A stretch of DNA of 15,190 nucleotides, from positions 1 through 15,190 of the forward strand of contig CABUCP010000020.1 in the NCBI GenBank assembly GCA_902490055.1, written 5' to 3'. Of the stretch, positions 7,239 to 11,486 are shown in pieces; the stretch's first letter is position 1, and every line of letters starts with the position of its first letter. The position numbers and the translations under genes are program-made. A model generated the notes under the pieces. It saw only the letters and a program-made list of their open reading frames with translations. It made no database searches and had not been told where the DNA came from. This stretch comes from an uncultured Klebsiella sp. (GTDB lineage Bacteria > Pseudomonadota > Gammaproteobacteria > Enterobacterales > Enterobacteriaceae).

Positions 7239-7859
7239 ATGACCTTCGAGTGGTGGTTCGCTTATCTGCTGACATCAATTATTCTCAGCCTGTCGCCGGG
7301 TTCCGGGGCGATTAATACCATGACCACATCCATCAATCACGGCTATCGCGGCGCGGCGGCGTCTATCGCTGGCCTGCAAACCGGTCTGGCCATTCACATT
7401 GTGCTGGTCGGCGTCGGTTTGGGCACCCTCTTCTCACGCTCGGTGCTGGCCTTCGAAGTGTTGAAATGGGCGGGCGCGGCCTATCTTATCTGGCTGGGGA
7501 TCCAGCAGTGGCGGGCGGCGGGCTCCATCGACCTGAATACGCTAGCCCGAACTCAAAGCCGCGGTAAGCTGTATAAACGCGCGGTGTTCGTCAACCTCAC
7601 CAACCCAAAAAGCATCGTCTTCCTCGCCGCCCTGTTCCCGCAGTTCATCGTGCCGCATCAGCCTCAGGTGATGCAGTACCTGGTGCTCGGCGTCACCACC
7701 ATCGTGGTTGATATCATTGTGATGATCGGTTACGCGACGCTGGCACAGCGTATTGCGGCCTGGATTAAAGGGCCGAAGCAGATGAAGGCGCTGAATAAAG
7801 TCTTCGGTTCGCTGTTTATGCTGGTGGGCGCATTGCTCGCTTCGGCCCGTCATGCCTGA
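7239..7859 (+). CDS. rhtB: Homoserine/homoserine-lactone exporter RhtB
   Basis: A 206-residue inner-membrane protein of the LysE/RhtB amino-acid exporter family, the same length as E. coli RhtB and nearly identical through most of the sequence. RhtB exports homoserine and related compounds by proton antiport. About six hydrophobic segments are visible (near residues 5-20, 42-62, 68-87, 116-133, 145-167, 186-202). The family motif SPGSGAINT is at 19-27, and NLTNPKS, which precedes the fourth segment, is at 119-125. The start is supported by AGGGAG six bases before the ATG. It is divergent from pldB and convergent with the sister exporter rhtC, the E. coli arrangement. Here an rpn gene separates the two exporters. 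Confidence 0.98.
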
Positions 7860-7989: not shown

Positions 7990-8028
7990 CCGCCATTGGG
8001 TTTATTCATGGATGAACGATAATGGCGG
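7990..8028 (+). promoter_or_regulatory. Hairpin covering the rpn ribosome-binding site and start codon
   Basis: CCGCCATT (7990-7997) is perfectly complementary to AATGGCGG (8021-8028), which contains the rpn ATG (8022-8024). An inner TTCA/TGAA stem (8005-8008, 8013-8016) surrounds part of the weak GGAT Shine-Dalgarno (8010-8013). In RNA this would pair the start codon and hinder initiation of the long product. Confidence 0.5.
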
Positions 8029-8930
8029 AAACGGCAACCCCTCATGATGCAGTCTTTAAGACCTTTCTCTCGCGGGTCGAAACGGCGCGCGACTTTATCG
8101 AGATTCATCTTCCACCGGCGTTAATTCAGGTTTGTAAACTGGAGACTCTGCGCCTGGAATCCGGGAGTTTTCTCGAAGACGACCTACGGCCTTATTACAG
8201 CGACATCCTCTATTCGCTGGAGACCACCAGTGGTCAAGGTTATATCCATGTCCTGATAGAACACCAGAGTTCTCCCGATAAACTGATGGCGTTCCGCCTG
8301 ATGCGCTACGCCATCGCAGCCATGCAGAGACATCTGGAAAATGGTCATAAAACGTTACCGCTGGTTATTCCCATTCTCTTTTACCAAGGGCGCCGCAGCC
8401 CCTACCCCTGGTCGTTAAACTGGCTGGATAATTTTGACGACTCGACCCTTGCGCATCAGCTCTATTCGGGAGCTTTTCCGCTGGTCGATATTACAGTGAT
8501 ACCTGATGATGAAATTATGCGCCACCGCAGCCTGGCGGCGCTTACGCTGGTGCAAAAACATATTCGCCAGCGCGATATGGCCCAGTTGCTGGACAAGTTG
8601 ACCCACCTCTTAATGTTAGAGCAGATGAGCGGACAACAAATCGCCGTGCTGATAAAATATATGGCTCAGGCGGGAGAAGCCCGGGATATTCGGGCGCTAT
8701 TGTATGGGCTGGCACAGCGTGTGCCGCAGCATGGAGGAATGCTAATGACTCTGGCAGAAACATGGCTCGCAGAAGGCAGAGAGAAAGGCATTAAAGAAGG
8801 CATCAAAGAAGGAAAACTACAGGCCCTTTTACAGGTCGCCGCAGCGATGCTCAATCGCGGCATGGATGACGATGCTATCCGGGAAATGACCGGTTTGACC
8901 AGCGATGAGCTACAGCGCCTTCGTCACTAA
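8022..8930 (+). CDS. Rpn family PD-(D/E)XK nuclease (recombination-promoting nuclease / putative transposase)
   Basis: A 302-residue protein of the Rpn family (formerly 'YhgA-like putative transposase', PD-(D/E)XK fold), clearly similar to E. coli RpnA from TPHDAVFKTFLS onward. The catalytic core is intact: Asp61 in SDILYSL, then Glu80 and Gln82 in VLIEHQS. FRLMRYAIAAMQRH and PLVIPILFYQG follow as in relatives. Rpn proteins are DNA endonucleases that raise RecA-independent recombination. Some act in phage defence with a short antitoxin made from the same gene. The variable C-terminal part has an EKGIKEGIKEGK stretch and ends in a helical MTGLTSDELQRL segment. GC, hand-counted on a few lines at about 50-56%, appears lower than in its neighbours. 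The gene separates rhtB from rhtC, which suggests acquisition at this site. The ribosome-binding site is poor and lies in a hairpin. It need not be a transposase: no ends or target duplication are seen. Confidence 0.95.
   Translation: MAETATPHDAVFKTFLSRVETARDFIEIHLPPALIQVCKLETLRLESGSFLEDDLRPYYSDILYSLETTSGQGYIHVLIEHQSSPDKLMAFRLMRYAIAAMQRHLENGHKTLPLVIPILFYQGRRSPYPWSLNWLDNFDDSTLAHQLYSGAFPLVDITVIPDDEIMRHRSLAALTLVQKHIRQRDMAQLLDKLTHLLMLEQMSGQQIAVLIKYMAQAGEARDIRALLYGLAQRVPQHGGMLMTLAETWLAEGREKGIKEGIKEGKLQALLQVAAAMLNRGMDDDAIREMTGLTSDELQRLRH
8630..8658 (+). promoter_or_regulatory. Candidate internal promoter for RpnS
   Basis: Within the rpn coding sequence CGGACA (8630-8635, 4/6) is followed after exactly 17 bases by TAAAAT (8653-8658, 5/6), with TGA immediately before it as an extended -10 (TGN). 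A transcript would start near 8665, about 80 bases before the internal ATG. This would allow the short product to be made without the long one. Confidence 0.45.
8745..8930 (+). CDS. Nested in-frame short product RpnS (candidate intragenic antitoxin)
   Basis: In frame with rpn, Met242 (8745-8747) is preceded by GGAGG (8733-8737) at seven bases, a far better start than that of the full-length gene. Translation gives a 61-residue protein equal to the C-terminal domain, beginning MTLAETWLAEG. In E. coli, rpn genes have been shown to produce such short C-terminal proteins (RpnS) from internal starts, which block the toxicity of the long nuclease. The corresponding Met occurs at the same place in E. 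coli RpnA (IMTIAE against LMTLAE here). Met240 at 8739 is only one base from the same Shine-Dalgarno and is less likely. Existence here is inferred from family knowledge plus the visible start signals. Confidence 0.65.
   Translation: MTLAETWLAEGREKGIKEGIKEGKLQALLQVAAAMLNRGMDDDAIREMTGLTSDELQRLRH
8787..8810 (+). repeat. 12-base coding tandem repeat in rpn/rpnS
   Basis: GGCATTAAAGAA and GGCATCAAAGAA follow each other directly, differing by one base and followed by GG, and encode GIKE twice. Copy-number change would add or remove four residues in frame. It lies in both the long and the short Rpn product. Confidence 0.8.
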
Positions 8931-8938
8931 TGTCAGCC

Positions 8939-8961
8939 CCACCCGGCAACAAACCGGGTGG
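8939..8961. terminator. Probable terminator between rpn and rhtC
   Basis: CCACCCGG (8939-8946) and CCGGGTGG (8954-8961) form a perfect eight-pair GC-rich stem with a seven-base loop, eight bases after the rpn stop and 16 before the end of rhtC on the other strand. Neither side has a real T-run, so it may end or stabilise both convergent transcripts imperfectly. Confidence 0.55.
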
Positions 8962-8977
8962 ATAATCGCATTACAAG

Positions 8978-9598
8978 TTAGCGCGAAATAATCAGATGAA
9001 TGCCGAAACCGGCAAACAGGGTTCCGGCAATGCCGTCTATCCATTTTGCCATCCGCTGATAACCGCGACGCATTTTCGGCAGTGCGAACAGGCTGGCCAC
9101 GATGGTGAACCACGCCAGCGTTTCAAGGACGATCAGCAGGAAAATGCCCCAGCGCGCCCCGGCGCCGATGTTATCGCCAACGAACAGCGAGAAGACCGAG
9201 CCAAAGTAGATAATCGCTTTCGGATTGGCGAGATTGGTCAGCAGGCCCTTCAGGAAACTGCGTCCGCTACGCGCCAGTTCAACCTGCGGTTCTGCAGCCA
9301 CAACGTCGGTTTTCTTCAACGCGCCGCGCAGCATTTGATAGCCCATCCAGCACAGATACAGCCCACCGCCGACCATAATCAGCGTATGCAGCCAGGCCAT
9401 TTTCTCGATAATCAGGTGCAAGCCGAGCAGCGCTACGCCCGCCCAGACCATCACGCCGCCGGTGATCCCCAGCACGCCCATCATCGCCTCTTTGCGCGAG
9501 CGGCTCACCGCGGTTTGCGAAACGAAGAAAAAATCCGGCCCCGGACTCATTAGCGCAATGATGTGCACCAGCGCCACGGTGAGAAAAAGCATCAACAT
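8978..9598 (-). CDS. rhtC: Threonine exporter RhtC
   Basis: A 206-residue LysE/RhtB-family inner-membrane exporter, the same length as E. coli RhtC, which exports threonine (and homoserine). The family signature SPGPDFFFV is at 18-26, and NLANPKAIIYFGSVFSLF, the conserved block before and into a later membrane segment, starts at 122. Six hydrophobic segments are visible. The assigned ATG (9596-9598) is followed by a second ATG at codon 3. The ribosome-binding site is weak for both, and the start follows E. coli. It lies 61 bases downstream of recQ on the same strand, as in E. coli, and is convergent with rhtB and rpn. No terminator is visible between recQ and rhtC, so cotranscription is possible. 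Confidence 0.98.
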   Translation of the reverse strand: MLMLFLTVALVHIIALMSPGPDFFFVSQTAVSRSRKEAMMGVLGITGGVMVWAGVALLGLHLIIEKMAWLHTLIMVGGGLYLCWMGYQMLRGALKKTDVVAAEPQVELARSGRSFLKGLLTNLANPKAIIYFGSVFSLFVGDNIGAGARWGIFLLIVLETLAWFTIVASLFALPKMRRGYQRMAKWIDGIAGTLFAGFGIHLIISR

Positions 9599-9659
9599 GT
9601 TTAACTCGCAGGGAAATAGTGAAGAGGGAAACTATTCTGGCACCTTTTCCCGCGGCTGA

Positions 9660-11486
<1,827 letters not shown>

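Follow-up and report, generated by a model that had tools for sequence, protein, structure and literature searches.

In Escherichia coli, rpn genes are reported to carry internal transcription and translation starts and to form a published kind of toxin-antitoxin system consisting of a long form, RpnL, and a short form, RpnS (Zhong et al. 2023, PMC10327210). According to that study, RpnA-S assembles with RpnA-L into a 2:2 complex and blocks DNA cleavage by RpnA-L, RpnA-S and RpnB-S each reduce the SOS response that their cognate long form induces, and removal of the internal start leads to a stronger growth inhibition by RpnA, RpnB and RpnP2. It further reports rpnS as a separate gene, as well as the loss of rpnS, in E. 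coli. Here, we describe a gene of this kind, located at 8022..8930 on the forward strand of a stretch of 15,190 nucleotides from an uncultured Klebsiella sp. (the window), which represents an additional case of the known RpnL/RpnS kind and not a new system. We consider it highly likely that the window gene is a gene-within-gene Rpn toxin-antitoxin unit, in which the nuclease RpnL would be inhibited via the shared tail by an RpnS that is made from an internal promoter and ribosome site; very probably, the gene encodes its own small antidote from this second, internal start. A previous annotation based on the letters of the DNA alone (the sequence-only reading) had likewise proposed an Rpn nuclease whose gene contains a nested RpnS with a start of its own, which is well supported by the sequence comparisons described below. 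It had also referred to E. coli Rpn genes as encoding a long toxic nuclease active in phage defence and a short inhibitor, which matches the published system with regard to the two products, whereas phage defence is demonstrated there for the plasmid RpnP2 only (PMC10327210).

The window gene is a single open reading frame of 302 codons with an ATG start and an intact frame, as seen in the list of open reading frames and the translation, and would encode the full-length product RpnL. Residues 6-206 (8037..8639, forward strand), which harbor the PD-(D/E)XK core, match the Transposase_31/YhgA-like family PF04754 (E 2e-84, 282.7 bits compared to a cut-off of 21), and the product scores 201.8 bits with the NCBI Rpn subfamily model TIGR01784, above the cut-off of 52.1. 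The RpnA equivalog model NF007361 gives 328.6 bits, which is below its cut-off of 583, and the gene is therefore not RpnA itself and falls in another subgroup of the family; the score with PRK09956 (348 bits) is also below 583. The nuclease domain and the catalytic residues are shared with E. coli RpnA (YhgA): D9, D61, E80 and Q82 of the window protein align with RpnA D11, D63, E82 and Q84, including all three core residues that had been named before (Asp61, Glu80, Gln82). In RpnA, the substitutions D11A, D63A, E82A and Q84K are reported to abolish all three assayed phenotypes, and Q84A and R94A to abolish recombination while retaining toxicity (PMC5350276). The window protein additionally has R92 and a PDDEI motif at 161-165, and D9, D61, E80, Q82 and R92 show no variation between the window protein and 15 orthologues at the same site. 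Membership in the Rpn family is confirmed by these matches, with a predicted PD-(D/E)XK DNA endonuclease as the product.

As noted in the sequence-only reading, a GGAGG (8733..8737, forward strand) precedes an ATG at codon 242 (8745-8747) with a spacer of 7 nucleotides, and the reading frame from this codon (nested rpnS, 8745..8930, forward strand) would yield a C-terminal protein of 61 residues, the predicted antitoxin. The computed duplex energy with the anti-Shine-Dalgarno sequence is -9.3 at codon 242, compared to -3.1 at position 8022, where the full-length frame starts, and -2.4 at the nearby Met240, and energies of -9.3 or lower occur at 0.5% of the codon positions in 83 aligned genes. 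This set comprises the homologues of at least 280 residues among 85 collected, from which L062 and L072 were dropped as shorter and which does not include the E. coli rpnD pseudogene. M242 indeed occupies the same alignment column as RpnA M244, as had been claimed, and it is this start, together with its ribosome site, that was mutated to abolish RpnA-S (Zhong et al. 2023, PMC10327210). The column holds ATG in 82 of the 83 homologues and GTG in the remaining one.

Four codons before the ATG, glycine is encoded by GGA or GGG in 41/41 genes (background 0.33), glutamate by GAG in 32/32 (0.38) and lysine by AAG in 10/10 (0.34), meaning that all 83 homologues use a Shine-Dalgarno-like synonym; in a control glutamate column two codons nearer to the start, GAG is used in 0/27 cases. 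The homologous sequences are related, and p-values of the codon tests are hence not independent. Column 238, which corresponds to the Shine-Dalgarno sequence, ranks third of 288 columns for unusual codon choice, and the two columns ranking above it coincide with a predicted internal promoter at 8630..8658 (forward strand), which consists of CGGACA and TAAAAT separated by 17 nucleotides, with the TG of an extended -10 at 8650-8651. The consensus scan identified one such site in the gene compared to 1.2 expected in shuffled sequences and is therefore, by itself, at chance level. However, column 211 (extended -10) and column 204 (-35) rank first and second of 288, and columns 211, 204 and 238 again take ranks 1-3 (of 289) when only 41 representatives with less than 75% identity are considered. 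In column 211, isoleucine is encoded by ATA in 39/39 and valine by GTA in 37/37 genes, with other codons in 7 of the 83 genes, which include RpnA, RpnB and RpnE (TTT) and RpnC (CAA). The window gene thus resembles RpnA in having an internal start in the same column and an internal promoter, and differs from it in the -10 codon, which is ATA in the window gene and TTT in RpnA. Among 16 sequences from the site, synonymous conservation peaks at codons 200-206 (0.88) and 234-240 (0.85), compared to a mean of 0.54; a third peak, at codons 133-139 (8418-8438; 0.83), has no explanation. From these results we conclude that, as sequence signals, the tail has its own ribosome site and start codon and rpnS is preceded by a predicted internal promoter, in agreement with what has been reported for transcription and translation starts inside the rpn genes of E. 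coli. Sequence data rarely suffice to establish a gene within a gene, and the finding that the -10, the -35 and the Shine-Dalgarno positions are the three most unusual of 288 columns offers an easy way to test for a nested rpnS in genomes that lack ribosome profiling.

According to the favored toxin-antitoxin reading, the full frame would give rise to RpnL, an endonuclease with a helical tail, and the internal promoter and ribosome site (8733-8747) to a separate RpnS, the tail alone. RpnS is expected to keep the nuclease inactive by pairing with the RpnL tail, until a trigger, probably phage infection, would free RpnL. For the two products, the toxicity and the inhibition, this scheme draws on the work on the Rpn systems of E. 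coli and Clostridioides difficile, and for a putative role of the window gene in phage defence on RpnP2.

The window gene separates rhtB (7239..7859, forward strand) from the convergent rhtC (8978..9598, reverse strand), which is in line with the earlier assignment and is based on tblastn and the E. coli annotation. Klebsiella is the group closest to the window, with a nucleotide identity of 85.5% to K. pneumoniae and 83.3% to K. michiganensis over 8.9 kb. Among 20 Klebsiella-genus genomes (defined by G001, which carries locus L006), all of which contain rhtB, a full rpn occupies the gap in eight (G001, G002, G004, G007, G012, G014, G017, G020), a broken rpn is found in one (G018), a solitary RpnS in two, decaying remains in two and nothing in seven. 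Both solitary copies, in G003 (61 residues) and G011 (53 residues), retain an intact GGAGG and ATG. In G003 (locus L132), which is the closest to the window among the genomes compared, and at locus L111, the nuclease part is deleted directly after the rhtB stop codon, leaving an open RpnS of 61 residues with its GGAGG. The internal promoter is gone in G003, and RpnS would therefore depend on read-through from rhtB. The remains in G006 are a decaying tail that has a stop codon and lacks the Shine-Dalgarno sequence, and those in G008 are a relic recognised by eye, in which tblastn finds no match. Since G011 and G006 have the same deletion junction, at least two independent nuclease deletions must have occurred, and both of them left RpnS in place at first. 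This order fits an antitoxin, because a prior loss of RpnS would free the toxin, and is, with two events, suggestive of such a role. One locus of a broader family sample (L150) weighs against a retention of RpnS, as its relic comprises residues 187-212 only, with the promoter region kept and RpnS gone. Together with the decaying tail in G006 and the relic in G008, this led us to reject a universal retention of RpnS.

The nested protein could also be real, but mainly help the nuclease to assemble or to act, or regulate it, and not be an antitoxin. Such a role would be compatible with the published 2:2 complex of RpnA-S and RpnA-L, and the antitoxin function of the window RpnS is itself assigned by analogy. 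However, the reduced SOS induction by RpnA-S and RpnB-S, the increased growth inhibition after removal of the start and the block of cleavage by RpnA-S (PMC10327210) argue against it, and a mere partner would not predict that RpnS and its Shine-Dalgarno sequence are still open in G003 and G011 after the nuclease had been deleted. We therefore regard this explanation as unlikely.

Marginally less likely still is that no separate RpnS is made and the gene is either a relic in decay or an ordinary transposase-like nuclease, in which case the ATG and the GGAGG would result from constraints on the protein sequence. Two observations weigh against a nested gene in this respect: when the window gene alone was synonymously recoded, the observed Shine-Dalgarno strength was reached in 24% of 300 draws, and for the recoding of all 83 genes the median was 17%, with just 2.4% of the genes below 5%. 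In addition, the gene is missing from many relatives. The significance of the internal Shine-Dalgarno sequence is hence based on the comparative codon tests, i.e. column -4 and the ranking of the codon columns, and not on the recoding of single genes. This reading is opposed by three different amino acids that all use the Shine-Dalgarno-like codon, and by codon anomalies at ranks 1-3 exactly at the -10, the -35 and the Shine-Dalgarno sequence. Furthermore, the frame of the window gene is intact, and in 36 pairs of nine intact Klebsiella-type copies including the window, the nuclease part has a ratio of non-synonymous to synonymous substitution rates (dN/dS) of 0.056, compared to 0.224 at residues 207-241 and 0.131 in the RpnS part. 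Intact Klebsiella-type rpn copies are under purifying selection.

The favored toxin-antitoxin unit would, moreover, be an old accessory locus between rhtB and rhtC that was lost repeatedly, and its promoter-RpnS tail appears to have been exchanged by recombination in one relative. The rpn of G014 (locus L131) is a mosaic of a K. pneumoniae-type head and a window-type promoter-RpnS tail. The window and G020 differ at 178 sites; when three at which G014 has neither base are left out, G014 carries the window base at 1 of 107 sites before codon 179 and at 63 of 68 sites after it, a pattern that is reached in 0 of 2000 permutations. To the right of the gene, 5 of 17 informative sites are window-like at 8931-8977 and 0 of 21 at 8978-9100, and the exchanged piece hence has its break near codon 179 and its right end near the stop codon. 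The exchange therefore covers RpnS along with its internal promoter and ribosome site. The rhtB gene of G014 is clearly closer to that of G020 than to that of the window, and at 9599-10621, 28 of 100 sites are window-like. Most of the other strong signals in 233 triplet tests concern G014 or the window, and could stem from the same event. No comparable exchange (head below 78% and tail above 90% identity) was found in 3403 pairs of the 83 homologues, which are more distant, and from which we conclude that the exchange in G014 was one event; a frequent swapping of tails in the family was rejected at the thresholds used.

Related genomes suggest that species can exchange the antidote part, and that this part can survive the loss of the cutting part. 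It is possible, if somewhat short of probable, that the promoter, ribosome site and RpnS tail constitute an exchangeable specificity cassette, so that one recombination would swap the tail of the toxin together with the antitoxin and the tail could persist after a nuclease deletion as a solitary antitoxin that could neutralise rpn toxins of matching specificity when these enter the cell. If this were true, a new but still matched toxin-antitoxin pair would arise in a single step, and G014 on the one hand and G003 and G011 on the other would be snapshots of the exchange and of the persistence of the tail. The natural variants of the site, with the toxin deleted, the tail exchanged or the toxin broken, allow direct tests of the order in which loss proceeds and of how specifically an intragenic antitoxin pairs. 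We found no prior description of the anatomy of this gene, the codon evidence across the family, the solitary RpnS states of the site or the tail exchange in the Rpn literature consulted (PMC10327210, PMC5350276); the E. coli rpn between rhtB and rhtC, solitary RpnS or tail exchange may already be described in the literature.

Among the related rpn loci from named genomes (best 80 of 167), ten are located between rhtB and rhtC (L001-L008, L010 and L072, the last with a broken frame), in Klebsiella, Citrobacter, Kluyvera, Enterobacter and Superficieibacter. The family sample consisted of 149 genomes, 71 of which have rhtB; 68 of the 69 besides G001 and G004 were examined (G152 was left out), and these loci include four full-length rpn matches (L138, L147, L154, L158), the relic at L150 and 63 without any match. 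In E. coli, megablast detects rpn at the site in 643 of 5426 genomes; in four strains checked, the gene is annotated as intact in three and as frameshifted in one. No solitary tail was seen in E. coli at this sensitivity, since all 643 matches cover at least 80% of the query. The E. coli protein WP_000133649.1 from the same site has 286 residues and keeps the catalytic residues, an SD-like (Shine-Dalgarno-like) GGAGAG and the internal ATG, and differs from the window protein by a shorter tail and by the frameshift annotated in one of the four strains. In K-12 MG1655, the site of the window locus is empty, with a gap of 61 bases. On the basis of these comparisons, rpn is an accessory gene at this site, and, contrary to a possibility raised before, it is not present in nearly all relatives.

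The sequence-only reading had further suspected a small defence insertion site. That the gap is a hotspot for defence genes with rpn as one of several cargoes, a view that concerns the site and is compatible with the favored toxin-antitoxin reading, would explain the presence of rpn in some genomes and its absence in others, including E. coli, but is very improbable, because none of 88 rhtB loci (20 of the Klebsiella genus and 68 others) showed another defence gene, a limited test in which open reading frames were read at eight loci. The gaps of about 180-240 bases were otherwise unread, and rhtC was not found near rhtB at 10 of the 88 loci. The gap of L160 contains a DUF2534 gene and that of L176 TetR and HPP genes, and the three open reading frames from these two gaps that were scanned had no PADLOC match. 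The site appears to be better explained by an old rpn locus that was repeatedly lost and recombined than by a defence insertion site. The rpn product itself matched no model of the PADLOC library of 2023, in which the presence of an Rpn model was unchecked.

With regard to structure, the predicted model of the tail aligns with 7th0, which was ranked first by a second structure aligner, a likeness to E. coli RpnA-S that suggests an RpnA-S-like tail; Foldseek returned no match to the predicted model at E ≤ 0.001. PD-(D/E)XK nucleases such as EndoMS/NucS (5gkj, 2vld) reached only middling scores in the structure comparison; they lack the Rpn tail, and we do not claim a common function. The tail also contains a tetrapeptide-repeat stretch, GREKGIKEGIKEGK, at residues 252-265 (8775..8816, forward strand), the repeat number of which varies among relatives in the alignments. 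Four-residue tail repeats of variable number are a feature of the Rpn family, and the difference to K-12 RpnA lies in the two IKEG repeats of the window gene, where K-12 RpnA has none. The tail of the 350-residue rpn in the rhtB-rhtC gap of L158 contains a very long series of such tetrapeptides. Finally, G001 (K. pneumoniae ATCC 13883) contains 15 matches to the Rpn protein, eight of which are located between 2 and 105 kb on its contig C2; these include three full-length matches and one broken fragment, as well as two matches that reach residue 265-266 and have their tails matched separately alongside.
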